A stretch of 27,437 nucleotides of DNA, from the IMG/VR virus record IMGVR_UViG_3300032053_000416, positions 1-27,437 of that record. One strand, 5' to 3'. Each line of letters starts with the position of its first letter. Within the stretch, counting starts at the first letter, position 1. Positions 5,573 through 27,437 of the stretch are shown in pieces. The position numbers were made by a program, and so were the translations under genes. This DNA is from a virus. The notes beneath the pieces are model-generated. The model was not told the DNA's origin. It searched no databases and was given only the letters and a program-made list of their open reading frames with translations.

Positions 5573-6538
5573 ATGGAGATGGAAATGGAAACAGTGGTGA
5601 GTCCGAGGTCAAAGCCAATCCTCAAGCATAGGGGGAGGAAGAAGGAAATCCTCATAATGCGCCGGCAGGGCGGGATAGGTGACATCCTCAACAGCCGGAT
5701 GATGTTTGAGGACATAAAGAAGTCCTATCCGGATAAGAGACTGGTCTATGCCGTGCCGGAGGAGTTCATCCCGCTGGTATCCGACCACCCATTCATAGAC
5801 AAGGTTCTTGACTGGGAATGCACCAGCACCAAGGGATGGTGGATGTTTTCCGACATTACAAACAAGTGCGGGGAATACGAGAGTAAACATGTTCCCAATG
5901 TTGACAAGCACAGGATTGACATCTGGGCCGACCATGTGGGTATTGAGTTAAGAAACCATAATCAGAACATCGTCTTTACGGAAGATGAGATTTCCTTTGC
6001 GAAAAGCGTCATTGATGGGATACCGAAACCAATTGTCGCTATACAACCGGTGTCATCCCACCCGGCCAAGGACTGGCCGATGGATAGGTGGCAGGAAGTG
6101 GTAGATGCCATAAGCAAGAATTATGGTTTTAGCATAATGTGTTTCCACAACAAGGAATTACTTATCAAGAATGTCATAATGATGGGTGGAAATGTAAACC
6201 TGCGGGAGTGGATGGCGATAACGAGTCAGTGCGACTATGTCATCACGGTGGCGACATCAATGTTCTGTCTTGCCAACGGACTGCACAAGCCGACCGTGGC
6301 GATATTCGGGTGTGAGGACTTGGACATTTATGGCAAATATTTTTCGGAGATGGTTCCGGTGCAGAGGCACAGGAAGAACAGTGACGGGTGGGGCGACTGC
6401 CCCTGCTGGCAGGCGTGGAAGGGGTACAGAAAAAATGACAACAAACCCATCTATCCACCGCCGTGCCTGAGCAGTATCACCATTGCCGATGTGATGAAAG
6501 GATTTGACGAATGCGTGGCGAAAAGCAAGGCGATATAA
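5573..6538 (+). CDS. Glycosyltransferase family 9 (heptosyltransferase-like)
   Basis: The 321-aa protein has the GT-B architecture of family GT9. The N-terminal acceptor half begins IMRRQGGIGDIL (GGIGDIL at 33-39). The C-terminal nucleotide-sugar half contains AIQPVSSHPAKDWPMDRW (Lys166 is the usual donor-binding lysine) and a D..I.VATS....A.....P.VAIFG element. Cellular GT9 enzymes transfer ADP-heptose to lipopolysaccharide core. In a phage, the substrate could be host surface glycan, DNA or virion protein; which one cannot be read here. The first 22 residues (MEMEMETVVSPRSKP) look like an extra tail or an over-called start, and Met5 at 5585 is an alternative. It overlaps the next gene by 28 bases. 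Confidence 0.82.
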   Translation: MEMEMETVVSPRSKPILKHRGRKKEILIMRRQGGIGDILNSRMMFEDIKKSYPDKRLVYAVPEEFIPLVSDHPFIDKVLDWECTSTKGWWMFSDITNKCGEYESKHVPNVDKHRIDIWADHVGIELRNHNQNIVFTEDEISFAKSVIDGIPKPIVAIQPVSSHPAKDWPMDRWQEVVDAISKNYGFSIMCFHNKELLIKNVIMMGGNVNLREWMAITSQCDYVITVATSMFCLANGLHKPTVAIFGCEDLDIYGKYFSEMVPVQRHRKNSDGWGDCPCWQAWKGYRKNDNKPIYPPPCLSSITIADVMKGFDECVAKSKAI

Positions 6539-7194
6539 AAAGAATATCGCCGGACTATTATAATGAGAGGTATTTCACCAATAACTGGTATGACAGCAAG
6601 TCGTTCGCGCTTGATAACTTGTTCCATAGGGATGTTGCGGAATTATTCGTTGACATTATGAAACCTCTTAAATACGACTCGGTGCTATCAATAGGGTGCG
6701 CCTTTGGCAATGTTATTTACTGGTTAAACAAGATGGGATATGACGGGCACGGGATTGATATCTCGGAATATGCCATCAGTCATACCCATATTCCGGGCAG
6801 GGTTACGCAGGGTGACGTGATAAACGGACTGTCCTATAAGGATGGCATATTTGATTACATCTTCTCAAGAGATACGTTTGAGCATATAGCGGAGGAGCAT
6901 GTCCCGAAAGTGATAGCCGAAATGGAGAGGGTGCTGAAGGTAGACGGTGGGATATTACTGATGCCGGCAAATAACTTCAATGACAAAGAAATTAGAAAAC
7001 AGATGAACTGTGCTGGTCCAAACCACGAGGATGGGAGCCATCTGTGCGTGAAACCACCATACTGGTGGGCGGAGATGATAGAAAAGCATGGCAAGAAATT
7101 GATAGTTGATTATAAGCGGACACTCTACGGGATGGCCGTCCCGATGGCAGAGAAAAACTCATGGACGGCATTGGTGGTAAGGAAAACAATATGA
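6511..7194 (+). CDS. Class I SAM-dependent methyltransferase
   Basis: The 227-aa protein has a standard Rossmann methyltransferase core. Motif I is VLSIGCAFGN (58-67), followed by an acidic motif II in GIDISE (81-86). FDYIFSRDTFEHI and the LKVDGGILLM strand follow. It is of the small-molecule/sugar methyltransferase type (Methyltransf_11/23-like), without a DNA-target or NPPY motif, so a glycan-modifying role fits the neighbours better than DNA methylation. SD AAAGGA lies 8 bases before this ATG, inside the end of the GT9 gene. It is joined to the next gene by an ATGA overlap. Confidence 0.82.
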   Translation: MRGEKQGDIKRISPDYYNERYFTNNWYDSKSFALDNLFHRDVAELFVDIMKPLKYDSVLSIGCAFGNVIYWLNKMGYDGHGIDISEYAISHTHIPGRVTQGDVINGLSYKDGIFDYIFSRDTFEHIAEEHVPKVIAEMERVLKVDGGILLMPANNFNDKEIRKQMNCAGPNHEDGSHLCVKPPYWWAEMIEKHGKKLIVDYKRTLYGMAVPMAEKNSWTALVVRKTI

Positions 7195-8279
7195 ACTCTA
7201 TTGATAAGTGGACTAATTTAGGGGACAAGATAGATTTTAGCATATCACTATATTATGGGGGCGGGCTCGGGGACCTTATCCACCGCCTCTATGACAGTTA
7301 CTATCTTAGGACACTGAGACATATCAAGATAATCTTTCCCAATCTGAAGATAAACCTGCTTATTGACACCAGTCGGAACATGGAGTCGGCAAAAGCATTG
7401 TTTGAAACTAACCCCTATATAGATAACATATTCATCTGGCAACAGAAATTTACTAATCAGGATATCTATGCGATGGTCTCCAATGTCATTGGGGACAGGA
7501 AGGGCGAGTTCAACCGGTTCATGCCGGAAATGGACAATGAGACGGTTTTTCTGAGGATGATAAACAGGATATATGAACTGACGGCATTCCCCCGCCTGAG
7601 GACGATTACCATGGACGACTTTTTCCAGCAGATGGCTCTTCGGATAGAAGACTTCGAGATGGACGAGCCGAAGATATATCTGAAGCCGGACGAGAAGGAA
7701 TACGGGAAGAAGTTAGTTAGTGATTTGAAGGCGAACGGGAATAAGGTGGTCGCCGTCCACTTCTTTTCCGGACAGGAAACTAAGATGATAAAACCGCAGG
7801 CGGCGAAGGATATAGTCAGGTGGTTGATAGCAGACGGATACAAGGTAGTCATAATGGGGACAAAACAGGAGGCGGAACCGGAATTGCACAATGGGGACAA
7901 GAAGGATATGGTGCTGATGTTGAAGGGATTCAGGGGCCATCCCGATGTTACCTACCTATGCGATGATACAGGCATAAGGCACAAGGTATCGGTTATAGCC
8001 AACTGCGATTACATGGTGTGTAATGATAGTGGACTGATGCACGCGGCGTGGTTTTATAGGGTTAAGACGGTATCGTTACTGAATCCCGATACCTTTGACC
8101 GGTTCCAGAAGAAGGGCGGCTATTACTGGGCGATAACAGATAAGGCGTCCCACACCAGTTATGTCCTGTTCAACAGGGACAGCAGATTGGTGGACGTCAA
8201 ACTGATAGAGCAAAGGATGGTGAATTTTGATGAAAAGGAAAAGGAAGAAGCGGCCAAGAAGACCAGCGAGGAAAGATAA
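7191..8279 (+). CDS. Second GT9-like glycosyltransferase
   Basis: The start at 7191 overlaps the previous stop as ATGA and has SD AAGGA in place; a longer in-frame start at 7161 lacks this. The 362-aa product has the GT9 N-terminal loop YYGGGLGDLI (21-30), the mid-protein strand VVAVHFFSG and the family's C-terminal CDYMVCNDSGLMHAAW (D.SG..H element). The usual KxW donor motif of GT9 is not clear; MIKPQAAKDIVRW is in its place. The tail after residue 345 is Lys/Glu-rich (EKEKEEAAKKTSEER), and its DNA is shared with the small basic ORF at 8230. Proposed role: transfer of an activated sugar in the same pathway as the other cassette enzymes. Confidence 0.74.
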   Translation: MNSIDKWTNLGDKIDFSISLYYGGGLGDLIHRLYDSYYLRTLRHIKIIFPNLKINLLIDTSRNMESAKALFETNPYIDNIFIWQQKFTNQDIYAMVSNVIGDRKGEFNRFMPEMDNETVFLRMINRIYELTAFPRLRTITMDDFFQQMALRIEDFEMDEPKIYLKPDEKEYGKKLVSDLKANGNKVVAVHFFSGQETKMIKPQAAKDIVRWLIADGYKVVIMGTKQEAEPELHNGDKKDMVLMLKGFRGHPDVTYLCDDTGIRHKVSVIANCDYMVCNDSGLMHAAWFYRVKTVSLLNPDTFDRFQKKGGYYWAITDKASHTSYVLFNRDSRLVDVKLIEQRMVNFDEKEKEEAAKKTSEER

Positions 8280-8358
8280 TAAGGAAAGAAATTATAAGAC
8301 TGAGAAACCGGAATATGAGGAATGGCCATCACTAAGGCCGATGGGAACGGACAGATGA
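8230..8358 (+). CDS. Possible 42-aa very basic protein overlapping two glycosyltransferase genes
   Basis: A second reading frame opens inside the end of the GT9-like gene and closes with TGA overlapping the ATG at 8355 (ATGA junction, as elsewhere in this cassette). The product starts MKRKRKKRPRRPARK and ends PSLRPMGTDR. AAAGGATGGTGA precedes the ATG by 6-10 bases. If real, it might bind nucleic acid or acidic glycan. It may also be a fortuitous frame through a Lys/Glu-coding A/G-rich stretch, which easily gives Lys/Arg in another frame. Confidence 0.38.
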   Translation: MKRKRKKRPRRPARKDNKERNYKTEKPEYEEWPSLRPMGTDR

Positions 8359-9422
8359 AGAAATTCCTGATGATACACGATATAAGCCAGAAGGAACTGG
8401 ACGGCAATGAGACCAATCTGATAAACAACTTCACCAACTGGGTGAGGTGCTTTACGGACTGGAAGAATATGACTGAGGTGGCGAAGTGGGCGGAGACAAC
8501 TCCTGAGAAGTGCCAGAACTTTGAATATGTAATGCTCCTGCTTATGACTGACCAGAGGGATGAGAAACTCAACAGGTTTCTTGAGATAGTCAACTATAAG
8601 GAGCGGACTTACAAGACGATTATGTATGTGGATGGCGTAGTCGGCTGGCAGATGAACCCATTCTCGGTCCCGAACAAGAAGAAGTATATGGACATGGTGA
8701 GTGCCTCGGATTACATCTTCCATTATGGCTTACCGGAGAGCGAATCATACTGGAAGGTGATAACGAGAGGAAGGGAATCATATAATATTGACCGTCCGCA
8801 TCCGGTAGACTTTGCCAAGAAGTCATTTGATATTGAGCATCCGGTGGCGATAGAATATATCAAGCAGTTCGCTCTGAAGGACAGGAAGGAAATCATAGCG
8901 GTCGGGAAGTCGCTTAAGAACATCAACGAGGAACGGAATGCCATATCGTCCCTGTATGTGGCGGGACAGTTGCAGAAGAGGACAGGCTGGCCGATAATAA
9001 CCTTCGCCAACAATCCCCTGCCTGATGGTGAGAAGTCGGCATACTACAAAGACTTATGTGATATTGACGAGATTATAGAGATTCCGGTGATGCGATGGAA
9101 TGACTATATCAAGATTCTGGCATTGTGCAGGATAGGGATACATCTTGATTGTCTTGAGACGCGGGGACAAGTGCCTCTCGACCACGGATGCCTGCGTGTG
9201 CCGATGGTGTGTGCCGGTTCGGTGGCGGGACAGAGGTTATTCCCTTACACATGGCTAAGCCACTGCCGTGACATTGACAAGGCACTGAAACTTGCATTTA
9301 AGTTAGTGGATGATAATAAATTTAGGGACAAGGTGGTAAACTATGCTTACGACAAGGCGGATGAATACTCGTTTGACAGCACGAGGGTAAAACTTGAGAA
9401 GATACTGGGGGTGGGAATATGA
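8355..9422 (+). CDS. GT-B fold glycosyltransferase (GT4-like)
   Basis: The 355-aa product starts MKKFLMIHDIS, a typical first beta strand. The in-frame ATG at 8322 has its purine stretch directly against the start, so 8355 is preferred. The C-terminal half has the shape of a retaining GT-B donor domain: KEIIAVGKSLKNINEER, IITFANNPLP, a linker, and RIGIHLDCLETRGQVPLDHGCLRVPMVCAGS, which corresponds to the region where GT4 enzymes carry their E-x7-E-like acidic pair. A final helix KALKLAFKLVDDNKFRDKVVNYAYDKADEYSF is also GT4-like. The substrate is unknown. It overlaps the next gene by 4 bases. Confidence 0.62.
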   Translation: MKKFLMIHDISQKELDGNETNLINNFTNWVRCFTDWKNMTEVAKWAETTPEKCQNFEYVMLLLMTDQRDEKLNRFLEIVNYKERTYKTIMYVDGVVGWQMNPFSVPNKKKYMDMVSASDYIFHYGLPESESYWKVITRGRESYNIDRPHPVDFAKKSFDIEHPVAIEYIKQFALKDRKEIIAVGKSLKNINEERNAISSLYVAGQLQKRTGWPIITFANNPLPDGEKSAYYKDLCDIDEIIEIPVMRWNDYIKILALCRIGIHLDCLETRGQVPLDHGCLRVPMVCAGSVAGQRLFPYTWLSHCRDIDKALKLAFKLVDDNKFRDKVVNYAYDKADEYSFDSTRVKLEKILGVGI

Positions 9423-10189
9423 AATATAATTCCATTTTTTACGAATCCGATTTGATTGAGTTAAAAGAGCCGGTGGAGGAAATTACAACTCTTAGAAATA
9501 AACTTGTTATTGACCAGGGGATGAATATGCCCTGGAGTGTTACGCGCCCGTGGGAATACGCCAAGTTAATTAAGGCAAGTCAACCATTGATTCATCACGG
9601 TTCTGTTCTTGATATAGGTTCAGCCAATAGCGTCCTGCCATTCTATTTCAATAATAAAGACTGCCTCGTGCAAGCATGCGACATAGAGATGCCGTCGGCC
9701 AGGGAACTGGATTACTATAAGAGGAATGCCATAGGATATAAGCGGGCGGGAATATTTGACCTGCCCTATAAAAAGGAGACTTTTGACTATGTCTTCTCGG
9801 TATGTGTGCTCGAACATATCTATCCATTCAGGGATGATGATGACATAGTCAGGGAAACAATCAGGGCATTCAGAAAAATTGCAAGAATATTGAAGCCGAA
9901 CGGCCTGACTGCCCATTCCTGCGATTTCTATGTGAAAGACTTCAATACATTCAGGACATACCACAGGGAACTTCTGTCAAGGATAATACTCGGCCTGGTC
10001 GGGACATTCGTCCCAGTGGACGAGCCGGACTACTCAATAGCCGACCCGATTAAATACTATACCGAGAACAGCACCATTTACGGCAAGCCGGAGGAGAGGG
10101 AGGAGAAACATCTTAAATATTTAAGGGAGGGCAAGGCACCGGAGAACCTGTTCACCTGCGCCTCAATAGTATTAAGGAAGGTGGAATAA
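9419..10189 (+). CDS. Class I SAM-dependent methyltransferase
   Basis: The 256-aa product has motif I VLDIGSANSVLP (63-74), an acidic strand end in ACDIEMP, the FDYVFSVCVLEHI post-I region and a LKPNGLTAHSCDF strand. This is the common sugar/lipid O-methyltransferase type rather than a nucleic-acid one. Residues 190-256 form a less typical C-terminal cap rich in Tyr and Glu. It is joined to the upstream glycosyltransferase by a 4-base overlap and ends one base before the tail terminator gene, so the cassette sits inside the late transcript. DNA near the start (9420-9640) is noticeably AT-rich compared with its end. Confidence 0.78.
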   Translation: MKYNSIFYESDLIELKEPVEEITTLRNKLVIDQGMNMPWSVTRPWEYAKLIKASQPLIHHGSVLDIGSANSVLPFYFNNKDCLVQACDIEMPSARELDYYKRNAIGYKRAGIFDLPYKKETFDYVFSVCVLEHIYPFRDDDDIVRETIRAFRKIARILKPNGLTAHSCDFYVKDFNTFRTYHRELLSRIILGLVGTFVPVDEPDYSIADPIKYYTENSTIYGKPEEREEKHLKYLREGKAPENLFTCASIVLRKVE

Positions 10190-24201: not shown

Positions 24202-24236
24202 TCGGTGACTTGTCAAAAAGGGAAGGAGAGGCTATA

Positions 24237-24527
24237 ATGATGTCAACGGAAGACAGGACTTATCTTGAGGGTAAGTTCAGTGGAATCTATGAGAAGATAG
24301 ACGACAACCAGAAGTGCATCCTTGAGAAACTGGATAGTCAGAGGAAGGAGACCGGGGACAGCATCAAGGAAGAGATTATCCAGCACTCGGACAATCCGTG
24401 CAAGAACATTGTCACGCACGAGAAGGACAAGCACGAGGGGATGATGCTGAAGGTCTTGGTCCTGATAGGGGCAGTCATTGCCACTATCTTCGCGGTGTCC
24501 GAACTTGTAGGGAGACTTGGCAAATAA
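24237..24527 (+). CDS. XhlA-like membrane protein (putative holin component)
   Basis: The 96-aa product has an N-terminal coiled coil (YLEGKFSGIYEKIDDNQKCI...KLDSQRKETG) and one C-terminal membrane span (residues 70-91, MLKVLVLIGAVIATIFAVSEL), the layout of XhlA-type haemolysin/holin proteins and of some phage membrane accessory proteins. I start it at ATG 24237 because AAGGAG lies 8 bases upstream; a TTG at 24210 would place the SD inside the gene. It begins a three-gene membrane group with 24549 and 24704, suggesting cell lysis. Confidence 0.62.
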   Translation: MMSTEDRTYLEGKFSGIYEKIDDNQKCILEKLDSQRKETGDSIKEEIIQHSDNPCKNIVTHEKDKHEGMMLKVLVLIGAVIATIFAVSELVGRLGK

Positions 24528-24548
24528 TCCGGCGGGAGGTGAACAGGA

Positions 24549-24707
24549 ATGTGGTATCCGATTATTGCGGTGTCAGGCATAGTCATCCTGTGGATTGCCA
24601 TATCAATAATCATACATATTCATAACAAAAAAATCAACTGGTATGAAATCAAGTATTACAAGGACTGGAGTGGTCGTAATAAAAAGGGAGGTGATAAGAA
24701 CATATGA
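24549..24707 (+). CDS. 52-aa single-pass membrane protein, candidate holin/lysis partner
   Basis: GGGAGGTG lies 8-9 bases before the ATG, and the stop overlaps the next gene as ATGA. The product starts with a hydrophobic segment MWYPIIAVSGIVILWIAISI followed by a basic and aromatic cytoplasmic-type tail (HNKKINWYEIKYYKDW). It has no cleavable signal and no known motif. In this position it could be a small holin, an inner membrane spanin partner or a lysis regulator. Confidence 0.6.
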   Translation: MWYPIIAVSGIVILWIAISIIIHIHNKKINWYEIKYYKDWSGRNKKGGDKNI

Positions 24708-25105
24708 GACAGATTAGAATGGTTTTAGTTTTGATTATTTTATGTCTGGTTATGTTCACTGCCTGCAACTTCGCCCGTGGGGTGTGGAACGGCATTACCG
24801 GACAGGAAACCGACAGCACCAAGGCGGCTCAGCAGATTAACGGGGCGGCCGACAGTGCCATCAGCGACGCCAAGGCGACCGGAAAGATTGACACGGAAAA
24901 GATACTCGCTCTTGTCCAGATGATGCAGGACTACCAGACCAAGGCCGAGAGTGAAAAACCGGACTATCTTGAACTGTTCGGGGCGATGGTAGGCATCGGC
25001 ATCGGGACATATCTCGGCACGCGGAAGGTCAGGACATCCAAGATAGGGGCAATGATAAACAGTATCATATCCTTGGGTGGCAAGTCCGAGCCGAAGAAAG
25101 TATAA
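24704..25105 (+). CDS. Putative lipoprotein at end of late operon
   Basis: The 133-aa protein has a lipoprotein-type signal: basic start MRQIRM, hydrophobic core LVLIILCLVM and Cys21 in FTAC (the -3 residue Phe is less usual than Leu). A helical mature region follows (QQINGAADSAISDAKATG), then a Gly-rich hydrophobic segment LFGAMVGIGIGTYLG. SD AAAGGGAGGTGAT matches 16S rRNA closely. Roles that fit are an outer-membrane spanin-like protein, or a membrane-anchored superinfection exclusion lipoprotein; the first is favoured by position next to membrane proteins. Confidence 0.6.
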   Translation: MRQIRMVLVLIILCLVMFTACNFARGVWNGITGQETDSTKAAQQINGAADSAISDAKATGKIDTEKILALVQMMQDYQTKAESEKPDYLELFGAMVGIGIGTYLGTRKVRTSKIGAMINSIISLGGKSEPKKV

Positions 25106-25110
25106 TTAAT

Positions 25111-25180
25111 AAGGGGCCTTTCTTGCCTTGCTTTTTTGTTGAGGCAGGTATTATAGAATACCTGCCTCGCCCCCTTTTTC
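25111..25180 (+). terminator. Strong terminator closing the late operon
   Basis: A perfect 12-bp stem GAGGCAGGTATT (25141-25152)/AATACCTGCCTC (25157-25168) with loop ATAG is followed by GCCCCCTTTTTC. An outer arm AAGGGGC (25111-25117) can pair with GCCCCCTT (25169-25176). A T-run (CTTTTTTGTT) also precedes the stem, so it may also stop transcription from the other side. Confidence 0.8.
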
Positions 25181-25208
25181 TTGACTTATATTTTTGTAAT
25201 GCTATAAT
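25181..25208 (+). promoter_or_regulatory. Sigma70-like promoter 1
   Basis: TTGACT (25181-25186), 16-bp spacer, TATAAT (25203-25208), directly after the late terminator. Predicted start near 25215. No start codon with SD follows before the second promoter, so it probably adds to transcription of the downstream region or makes a short leader RNA. Confidence 0.55.
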
Positions 25209-25324
25209 AATTTTAAGTTTTATGATTAATTTCTAATTTCCCCGTTTTCCGAAACCCCCTTATAACTCATCCAAACCTACCCCAAACCCCTATAAAATAT
25301 ATTTGCATAAATTTTATATTTTTC
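25209..25324. other. AT-rich intergenic segment with four C-tracts
   Basis: No gene is seen between the two promoters. The segment is AT-rich but contains four runs of 4-5 C (25240-25243, 25255-25259, 25280-25283, 25287-25290), the last two as CCCCAAACCCC. On the minus strand these are G-runs. This could bind a regulator or form a loose G-quadruplex; nothing proves either. Confidence 0.35.
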
Positions 25325-25353
25325 TTGACAAAATTAAATAAATAGTGTATATT
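25325..25353 (+). promoter_or_regulatory. Sigma70-like promoter 2 (near consensus)
   Basis: TTGACA (25325-25330), 17-bp AT-rich spacer, TATATT (25348-25353), with an A/T-rich upstream region (AATTTTATATTTTTC) that may act as an UP element. The predicted start, 25360 or 25361, coincides with the first base of the crossed-stem RNA. This is the best promoter in the window. Confidence 0.72.
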
Positions 25354-25359
25354 ATATGC

Positions 25360-25465
25360 AGATGACGAGGATAAAATTAAGTAATAATAACAAGGCAAGC
25401 CGGAGTCCTACCGGAGTCCGCGCATCTGCGGACAGACTCGTCATCTCTCCGGCTTGCTTATTTTC
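25360..25465 (+). ncRNA. Structured RNA with crossing stems (pseudoknot), small RNA or leader
   Basis: Stem A: AGATGACGAG (25360-25369) pairs perfectly with CTCGTCATCT (25437-25446). Stem B: GCAAGCCGGAG (25395-25405) pairs perfectly with CTCCGGCTTGC (25447-25457). The order A-B-A'-B' is that of an H-type pseudoknot with the stems directly adjacent, or of two exclusive folds. Hairpin C (GTCCGC 25416-25421 / GCGGAC 25428-25433) sits in between. Loop one (25370-25394) is A/T-rich. After B' comes TTATTTTCCCCC, a possible terminator tail. The direct repeat CCGGAGTCC occurs twice (25400-25408, 25411-25419). The RNA begins at the predicted start of promoter 2. It may be a free small RNA or a regulatory leader of the gene at 25487. 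I do not recognise a known family. Confidence 0.55.
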
Positions 25466-25669: not shown

Positions 25670-25802
25670 ACGCCCTGCAACGGGGGGCGTTAGTAAATAG
25701 GGCCCGGCGTCGTTGACCGGGCCCCGCCCCGCATAACGCCCTGCAACGGGGGGCGTTAGTATAATAGGGCCCGGCGTCGTTGACCGGGCCCCGCCCCGCA
25801 TA
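25670..25802 (+). repeat. Tandem duplicate of a GC-rich double-hairpin unit
   Basis: Two nearly identical units, 66 bp (25670-25735) and 67 bp (25736-25802), differ by a single inserted T (TTAGTAAATAG versus TTAGTATAATAG). Each carries hairpin one, ACGCCC/GGGCGT around a 9-base loop, and hairpin two, GGGCCCGG/CCGGGCCC around CGTCGTTGA (25700-25707 with 25717-25724 in unit one). No T-run follows. They resemble REP-type palindromes or a repeated RNA element and stand out as a GC island in an AT-rich region. The region from 25649 to 25827 has no other gene. Confidence 0.75.
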
Positions 25803-25917: not shown

Positions 25918-25937
25918 ACCTATAAAGGAGGTAACCA

Positions 25938-26504
25938 ATGAAAAACTGCACAAATAAAAATCATAGCAACTGCACCGGACTAAGTGGCAACTGCTCCAGA
26001 CTAATTGGCAACTGTTCCGGAATATTTGGCAACTGCACCGGACTAAGTGGCAACTGTTCCGGACTATTTGGCGACTGCACCGGAATAATTGGCAACTGCA
26101 CCGGACTATTTGGCGACTGTTCCGGAATAATTGGCGACTGCACCGGAATAATTGGCAACTGCTCCAGACTAATTGGCAACTGTTCCGGACTAATTGGCGA
26201 CTGCACCGGAATAAGTGGCGACTGTTCCGGACTAATTGGCAACTGTTCGCCACTAAGTGGCGACTGCTCCGGACTAAGTGGCAAAATCTCTGCTTGTCTC
26301 TGGATATGGAAATACCCAATTATCAAGATAGAGGGAAAAACAAATATTATCTGCGTTGGTTGTTTGCGTTTTGCGAAAAAACCGGCATACGAAGAGGTTA
26401 AAGCACATTGCACTAAAATAGAATACAAAAAACTAATGATGATTTGGAAGGCGTTAGAAAAGATTTCTGTTATTAATCAAAGGTGTTTTTTCACTTGGCA
26501 ATAA
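25938..26504 (+). CDS. Heptapeptide cysteine-repeat protein with C-terminal unknown domain
   Basis: The 188-aa protein has a short start MKNCTNKNH, then fifteen tandem 7-residue units (residues 10-114) of consensus G(N/D)C(S/T)G(L/I)(I/S/F), then a 74-residue domain with ICVGC, HCTK and a helical end. The repeat puts one Cys, one Asn/Asp and one aliphatic residue at fixed positions, as expected of a beta-solenoid; two units (14 residues) per turn would parallel the 7-residue xxNxVxG repeat of the ryegrass antifreeze protein, or the pentapeptide-repeat fold with longer steps (inference). A ladder of cysteines could bind metal or cross-link. There is no signal peptide. SD AAGGAGGT is near perfect and identical to that of the next gene. 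Function is unknown; I know no characterised homologue. Confidence 0.72.
   Translation: MKNCTNKNHSNCTGLSGNCSRLIGNCSGIFGNCTGLSGNCSGLFGDCTGIIGNCTGLFGDCSGIIGDCTGIIGNCSRLIGNCSGLIGDCTGISGDCSGLIGNCSPLSGDCSGLSGKISACLWIWKYPIIKIEGKTNIICVGCLRFAKKPAYEEVKAHCTKIEYKKLMMIWKALEKISVINQRCFFTWQ
25965..26279 (+). repeat. 15 tandem 21-bp coding repeats
   Basis: Each 21-bp unit follows GGC(A/G)ACTG(C/T)(A/T)CCGGA(C/A)TA(A/T)(G/T)T with few departures (three units have AGA or CCA for GGA). Because 21 is a multiple of three, gain or loss of units keeps the frame. Differences between units fall mainly on amino-acid-changing positions. Confidence 0.9.
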
Positions 26505-26515
26505 GGAGGTAACCA

Positions 26516-26830
26516 ATGCTGATAAACCAATCGTTAGTTAGGAAGATGTTTAAGACGTCCGGACAGCGGACACCCACCGGCTTTGTAAGCTGGCTTAACC
26601 TGATAGTTACCGCCACGGTGGAGCAGGCAGTCAAGATAAGTATCCATAGGCTTGGTAATCCCTGTCTATCCGATGTCAGGGGAGCATCCGCAAGGACGGG
26701 GAATATCATCTATGGCAGGCATCTGGACGAGGCGATAAGGAGACTGGAGAGGGATGGATTGGATGTCAATAGTCCGGGGCTTGCGATGGCGAAGGCCCGG
26801 GAAATAGCGAAGGAGGTAGTCAATGTTTAA
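26516..26830 (+). CDS. Small protein of unknown function, possibly histone-fold-like
   Basis: The 104-aa product has SD AAGGAGGT and a helix-rich pattern: LVRKMFKTSG near the start, a central long helix FVSWLNLIVTATVEQAVKIS, then RTGNIIYGRHLDEAIRRLE. A short-long-short helical arrangement ending with a helix after a T/R-G..I...H...A motif is reminiscent of histone-fold proteins, but the resemblance is weak. It overlaps the downstream 23-aa ORF by 8 bases. Confidence 0.55.
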   Translation: MLINQSLVRKMFKTSGQRTPTGFVSWLNLIVTATVEQAVKISIHRLGNPCLSDVRGASARTGNIIYGRHLDEAIRRLERDGLDVNSPGLAMAKAREIAKEVVNV

Positions 26831-26894
26831 CCTATGCCTTTTGACTTGGTGCTTTCTGTTTATGATTGTAATCAGGGAAATACTGGGGAGATGA
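26823..26894 (+). CDS. 23-aa hydrophobic peptide
   Basis: A tiny ORF with AGGAGGT 5 bases before the ATG overlaps the previous stop and ends just before the SD of the RadC-like gene. The product MFNLCLLTWCFLFMIVIREI (plus LGR) is one membrane helix with a basic end. The SD lies inside the upstream gene, so translation is probably coupled. It might be a membrane toxin-like or regulatory peptide; function unknown. Confidence 0.45.
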   Translation: MFNLCLLTWCFLFMIVIREILGR

Positions 26895-26905
26895 AAGGAG
26901 ATAAT

Positions 26906-27343
26906 ATGTATTATACACAACGACTGGAACTGATGATTGTCAGGGAGAAGACGAGCAATCCCGCCTTTGTCACCTCACCGAAGGAAATCTACCAGTGGGT
27001 GAGGCGGCTGGAGGATAGTGATAGGGAGAAGATGATTGCCATCTATCTTAATGCGGTCAATAAGGTGATAGGATACCATGTTGTCTTTGTCGGCGCGACA
27101 TCGAGTTGCACGGTAAGTCCGCGGGAGATTATCAAGATGGCGATTATGGTTAATGCTACCGCACTGGCGATTGCCCACAACCACCCGTCGGGCCAGGCCG
27201 AGCCAAGCAGGGATGACCGGAGGTTCACGGATGACATGAAGACCGCCTGCAAACTGATGGAAATATCTTTCCTCGACCATCTTGTGGTAGGCGATAAGGG
27301 TTTTTACTCGATAGAACACGAGAGAGGTGAGACTTATGAATAA
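26906..27343 (+). CDS. RadC-type JAB/MPN domain protein
   Basis: The 145-aa product carries the JAMM metal site HNHPSGQAEPSRDD (His91, His93, Asp104) and the family's LDHLVVG and YS.EHE ending. It is the JAB domain of the RadC/UPF0758 family without the N-terminal helix-hairpin-helix part of full-length RadC (normally about 220 aa). Such short RadC proteins are common on phages and mobile elements, often near anti-restriction genes; the biochemical role is not settled. The start at 26906 is chosen because AAAGGAGA precedes it; ATG 26834 would run through the 23-aa ORF and has no SD. Confidence 0.85.
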   Translation: MYYTQRLELMIVREKTSNPAFVTSPKEIYQWVRRLEDSDREKMIAIYLNAVNKVIGYHVVFVGATSSCTVSPREIIKMAIMVNATALAIAHNHPSGQAEPSRDDRRFTDDMKTACKLMEISFLDHLVVGDKGFYSIEHERGETYE

Positions 27344-27353
27344 GGAGGGTAAA

Positions 27354-27437
27354 ATGGGTGAACTAAAGAAGATGACAGAGAACCGCAAGTTTGAGGGCGG
27401 AAGGCTTCTTCTTTCGTCCGGAGTGAGCAAGACGGTT
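27354..27437 (+). CDS. 5' end of an unidentified gene, cut by window end
   Basis: TAAGGAGGG ends 4-5 bases before an ATG, followed by 28 codons to the window end. The visible product starts MGELKKMTENRKFEGGRLLL and continues SSGVSKTV. Too little remains to name it. Its SD overlaps the stop of the RadC-like gene, so it belongs to the same operon. Confidence 0.6.
   Translation, partial: MGELKKMTENRKFEGGRLLLSSGVSKTV

Follow-up and report, generated by a model that had tools for sequence, protein, structure and literature searches.

A phage accessory gene encodes a heptapeptide-repeat protein predicted to form a beta-solenoid, from a family that appears enriched in viruses

We analyzed a 27,437-nucleotide stretch of viral DNA (IMG/VR record IMGVR_UViG_3300032053_000416), hereafter the window, which carries near its end a gene for a protein with fifteen seven-residue repeats. 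The following features were assigned to this region.

25325..25353, plus strand: sigma-70-like promoter, TTGACA-17-TATATT, upstream of the accessory genes and well conserved in the close relative phage L100
25938..26504, plus strand: heptapeptide-repeat protein, predicted solenoid, 188 aa (from translation, an AGGAGG ribosome-binding site and C-terminal dN/dS)
25938..25964, plus strand: N-terminal segment MKNCTNKNH (MLNCTNENH in L100; similar MKNCKSEKH in L091)
25965..26279, plus strand: fifteen heptads (S/G)(N/D)C(S/T)(G/R/P)(L/I)x, predicted beta-solenoid of ~7.5 coils of 14 residues
26280..26480, plus strand: conserved C-terminal domain, GKISACLWIWKYPIIKIEG...VGC.RF.KKP.YEEV...EY..L..W..L..I, homologous to L080 and L100
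26516..26830, plus strand: 104-aa protein of no known family, also adjoining the solenoid gene in L100
26906..27343, plus strand: RadC-like JAB-domain protein (Pfam PF04002, E = 9.8e-38; phrog_10276)

The ATG start codon of the solenoid gene is located 6 nt past the AGGAGG sequence (25926-25931). In the translated product, the heptads occupy residues 10-114 with the consensus G[N/D]C[S/T]G[L/I]x, the deviations being Ser10 in place of Gly in unit 1 and R, R, and P in place of the position 5 glycine in three units. Tandem Repeats Finder independently detected a 21-bp period (15.2 copies, score 386) and a 63-bp super-period (5.1 copies, score 463), and the array is therefore not a product of chance. 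Apart from the small deviations, translation and repeat detection confirmed the fifteen units that an earlier note had read from the letters of the window.

The promoter-like site, a strong one, follows the head and tail genes and precedes small ORFs and the solenoid gene. L100 shares 88% DNA identity with window positions 26221-27437 and 78% with 24217-25462. The two contigs end at the same base (27437 in the window and 5129 in L100) in an identical stretch (...GAGTGAGCAAGACGGTT), which most likely represents an assembly-graph break between co-occurring strains and not a genome end.

Other elements were observed in the window. At 25360-25457, beginning at the expected transcription start of the promoter, two perfect inverted repeats interleave (AGATGACGAG/CTCGTCATCT and GCAAGCCGGAG/CTCCGGCTTGC; 3352-3449 in L100) and would form an H-type pseudoknot-like RNA, which had no match in Rfam. 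The long stems and the A-rich loop are identical in L100, and the inner hairpin differs yet still pairs (GTCCGC/GCGGAC in the window versus GTCCC/GGGAC in L100, with one G-C to C-G swap). A GC-rich sequence of 66-67 bp is present in two copies at 25670-25802, each with two hairpin-forming inverted repeats, in a part of the window without alignment to L100. At 5573-10189, a run of glycosyltransferase-like and SAM-methyltransferase-like ORFs is embedded in the head and tail genes; for one methyltransferase there was a PHROGs match, and the remainder of this run was judged by reading.

Relatives of the protein were collected with DNA patterns, as an initial protein scan of viral contigs was empty. 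The strict Cys pattern, covering three consecutive Cys units, was found in 27 viral-contig stretches, a looser Cys pattern in 52, and a Val pattern in 22. By contrast, the strict Cys pattern occurred in only 1 of 84,980 bacterial and archaeal genomes, on a Desulfovibrio contig; two genes near this locus match PHROGs, so it may be a prophage. The Val pattern was absent from 395 genomes of the phylum of the Desulfovibrio locus, and no plasmid matched a Val-type member. Judged by these pattern counts, 27 viral stretches against a single cellular genome, the G[D/N][C/V][S/T]GLx family is enriched in viruses. Among 50,697 named phage records, the sole clear member was UOF80481.1 (MW202691.1, Caudoviricetes sp., Manatee Spring), which is 58% identical to the window protein over the repeats. 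Several phages have more than one solenoid gene: L012, L020/L023, L029, L050, L026, and L084 carry two to four paralogs, often arranged in tandem.

A typical member begins with an N-cap (Kxlxr...LYHyvDG..v.Gp), continues with 5-27 or more heptads, and ends with one of two C-caps (GDxDeCeIT.eER..GvdI.dLi or GDxxxIPxxxRPxxLxDWV). In 47 proteins with 577 units, where the search patterns skew the counts of residues at positions 2-6, positions 1, 3, and 6 were strongly kept, the commonest residue at position 7 was Arg, and position 3 was nearly always all Cys or all Val within one protein. The common caps are found on both the Cys-type and the Val-type proteins. Since proteins with the same caps are wholly Cys or wholly Val at this position, Cys3 is probably a buried slot filler and not a metal ligand.

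The window protein represents a different subtype, having neither the common N-cap nor either of the two C-caps; UOF80481.1, unlike it, carries the common N-cap and ends differently at its C-terminus. The window N-terminus differs from the common one, and the C-terminal part is of a third kind, common to L080, L100, and L101, all four members being of the Cys type. Over this domain of ~65 residues, identity was 76% with L100 and 52% with L080 (66 aa). The dN/dS of 0.31 between the window and L100 shows that the domain is real and under purifying selection, which bears out the distinct C-terminal domain of the earlier note. The Cys pairs that had been ascribed to it were not conserved in the four homologues, the second Cys of the CVGC motif alone being invariant. 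The final eight residues, QRCFFTWQ, are an extension, and L100 has a stop codon at this point. No credible match to the domain was returned by Pfam, PHROGs, PDB, or the named phages.

The solenoid itself varies greatly between these relatives. The L100 ortholog (L100:3920-4210) has the same kind of N-terminus and C-terminal domain as the window protein with only 3 heptads, compared with 15 in the window and ~22 in L080. Similarly, L008 and L014 differ by 105 bp (five units) with aligned flanks that are otherwise identical, and L014, L015, and L017 have arrays of equal length composed of different units. Assembly collapse could account for part of the length differences; it does not explain the unit replacements. 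From these array comparisons, we read the ends as the constant part and the solenoid as the variable part of the protein.

We then compared the codons of the units with one another. The between-unit pN/pS was 0 at position 1, 0.13 at position 3, 1.43 at position 5, and 1.32 at position 7, a pattern suggesting relaxed or mildly diversifying change at positions 5 and 7, with positive selection unproven. In the pooled test, 82 synonymous differences were counted against 85.5 expected, with amino-acid changes at the neutral expectation, and diversifying selection is therefore not claimed. The L047, L057, and L060 arrays (21, 20, and 12 units) contain zero synonymous differences, and the several amino-acid alleles found at each position are combined in different ways. 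Diversifying selection in these three arrays was considered and rejected, as their post-hoc choice is biased and the excess vanishes when the arrays are pooled.

AlphaFold2, run with the relatives as the alignment, returned a beta-solenoid for the window protein, with pLDDT of ~80-91 over most of residues 11-110. Five-residue strands are in register with the heptads and spaced by 14 residues (26 and 40; 47, 61, and 75), so that two heptads, or 14 residues, apparently make up one coil; the lag-2 coil-stacking signal from sequence was weak. Residues 123-149 were modeled with low confidence, and a helix was placed at 149-183. A second family member was also modeled as a solenoid, at lower confidence. 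Foldseek searches against PDB and BFVD gave no match at E <= 0.001, with generic beta-helices among the weaker ones. On the strength of the model, it is fairly secure that the window array forms an ordered beta-solenoid, as had been proposed in advance. With side-chain orientation deduced from unit conservation, Gly1 and Asp/Asn2 would form the turns, Cys/Val3, Ser/Thr4, and Leu/Ile6 would be mostly structural, and residues 5 and 7 would constitute the variable outer surface. The proposal that the Asn/Asp choice sets the charge of one face does not fit this arrangement, because two heptads per coil would place Asn/Asp on both sides.

Searches of PHROGs, NCBIfam, PADLOC, and PDB sequences found no credible family for the window protein, and the absence of a recognised family held across Pfam as well, where the sole match above the cut-off looks artefactual. 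This match was to PF02349 (MSG, a Pneumocystis surface glycoprotein; 25 bits versus a cut-off of 22, over 34 residues, and up to 46 bits in relatives), and it was judged a false positive caused by Cys/Leu spacing to a fungal family. A resemblance to the TigB RiPP precursor (NF047709) was set aside at 26.1 versus 70 bits, and the Val-type relatives remove the need for Cys. The phrog_19577 'minor head protein' and the tail needle gp26/8qox have a heptad hydrophobic spacing in common with the phage family but are helical coiled coils without the Gly pattern; alignments and phiNIT1 orf378 marked these matches as coincidences of coiled-coil phase. No pentapeptide profile of Pfam was matched, the period being 7 residues (21 bp) and not the five of A(D/N)LXX. 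No description of the repeat was found in the literature searched.

The surroundings of the relatives were also inspected. Among 114 neighbours, we identified exonucleases, Erf, NinB, RecE-like, YqaJ, Gp157, Dam, helicase, and ligase families, and no recurring partner gene. In MW202691, a complete P22-like genome, the operon that holds the solenoid gene is on the other strand from the structural genes, with SSB and NinB-like genes upstream of the solenoid gene. The accessory setting with a RadC-like gene suggested by the earlier note is thus supported by the promoter-like site, by the RadC-like gene two genes downstream, and by the recombination genes near the relatives. Early expression need not hold for all members, because in L080 the solenoid gene comes after endolysin-like and holin-like genes, directly behind the latter. 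A few genes past it, L080:7145-7843 (plus strand) encodes a Cys-rich protein of C-x-F-G-x-x repeats with a period of 6 (weak Hexapep match, E = 3.8e-5), probably a second type of solenoid in the same phage.

We propose that the window protein is a cytosolic, non-virion accessory protein of the phage, in which a length-variable solenoid acting as a surface or spacer is joined to a dimerising or target-binding C-terminal domain; we assign this reading a probability of about 0.42. The fifteen heptads would fold into a narrow beta-solenoid with two sides, each coil consisting of two 7-residue half-turns, presumably located in the cytosol, and gain, loss, and shuffling of 21-bp units would adjust the solenoid as a binding surface or spacer of variable length. 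During infection, it would probably bind a protein of the host or of a competitor and inhibit or redirect that protein. The role suggested for the C-terminal domain, dimerisation or target binding, follows the analogy of pentapeptide-repeat solenoids, which have a C-terminal, possibly dimerising, helical part (PMC10886550). Like MfpA, Qnr, and AlbG, the window protein would combine a short-period beta-solenoid with such a part (PMC10886550), and a comparable way of working, through a solenoid and dimerising C-terminal helices, is plausible by this analogy. It differs from those proteins in its period of 7 instead of 5, in the lack of a Pfam match, and in not being strongly acidic.

An unlikely but still serious alternative is that the heptad array arose by recent slippage expansion and has no dedicated role, and that only the N- and C-terminal parts function. 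The three units of the L100 ortholog, the 63-bp super-period, and the near-neutral total of between-unit amino-acid variation are compatible with slippage. On the other hand, the strong conservation of positions 1, 3, and 6 over the 577 units and the recurrence of the solenoid across many unrelated phages, joined to differing C-terminal caps, indicate that it is selected as a module. A more specific proposal, somewhat more doubtful than slippage, is an unrecognised, phage-specific class of inhibitors whose solenoid would be lengthened, shortened, and reshuffled in 21-bp units to redirect the protein against changing factors of the host or of rival phages, the outer residues 5 and 7 then encoding specificity.

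Mimicry of DNA, in which an acidic rod like MfpA or Qnr would occupy gyrase or a defence nuclease, had been put forward for this gene and is improbable. The shape of the solenoid, the mild acidity of most family members, the DNA-metabolism genes in the neighbourhood, and the presence of AlbG and MfpA among the non-significant Foldseek matches point toward it. However, the net charge of the window solenoid is only -3 and that of the whole protein is +7. The units of the L100 ortholog contain no Asp and three Arg, and three units (~1.5 coils) are too short for mimicry of a duplex. Some arrays of relatives are even net positive, such as that of L060 (+4).

The earlier suggestion of metal binding, here a metal- or redox-active Cys ladder, is very improbable: 15 regularly spaced Cys and the Cys type of all four members with the window-type C-terminal domain would suit it, but position 3 is Val throughout in relatives that bear the same caps, Cys and Val thus interchanging in proteins capped alike, and the CxxC of the C-terminal domain is not conserved.

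Beta-solenoids of short period built from 7-residue half-turns are already known from the ryegrass protein (3ult). The beta-roll motif of Lolium perenne, N-x-V-x-G, has what we take to be a parallel in the S/T-x-L-x-G of the phage units. Like this ice-binding beta-roll (PF21300, PDB 3ult), the phage protein may be a two-sided beta-solenoid with 7-residue half-turns, and the structural comparison with ryegrass made earlier gains some support from the strand spacing of 14 in the model and from sub-threshold matches of relatives to PF21300 and 3ult. The window protein itself did not match PF21300, and V-type relatives reached 13.8-14.3 of the 30 bits needed. The phage protein is further set apart by its origin, its Cys core, its variable Arg/Ser/Ile surface, and its extra C-terminal domain. 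We give hardly any credence to the function of that protein, that is, to ice, surface, or polysaccharide binding. The putative common half-turn, the E values of 0.04-0.07 (PF21300, V-type relatives) and 0.65 (3ult), and the I/F/S that the window units carry at position 7, which is exposed, agree with it, but the N-terminus, by reading, lacks a signal peptide, and position 7 of the family is most often Arg; no test that we ran favours it. A trimeric coiled coil, with a helical heptad whose a position is Cys/Val and whose d position is Leu, is scarcely credible despite profile matches such as gp26 (E = 1.7e-10) and phrog_19577, given about two Gly per heptad together with Asp/Asn and Ser/Thr as helix breakers, the strands returned by AlphaFold2, and phiNIT1 orf378, which has the V..L phase in common but not the Gly pattern.

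No description of the phage solenoid family itself was found in the libraries or literature searched, and automatic annotation may label its members 'major surface glycoprotein' or 'minor head protein.' The preferred reading, a cytosolic accessory protein with a length-variable solenoid, concerns a virus-enriched family that, from its sequences, spans unrelated phages, lies outside Pfam, PHROGs, NCBIfam, and PDB, and combines a simple unit code with rapid array turnover. Many small phage accessory proteins have no known role, and the number of units and their surface residues would provide a testable handle on the targets of such genes. The heptad may also be useful in repeat-protein design, as a natural scaffold of very short length.
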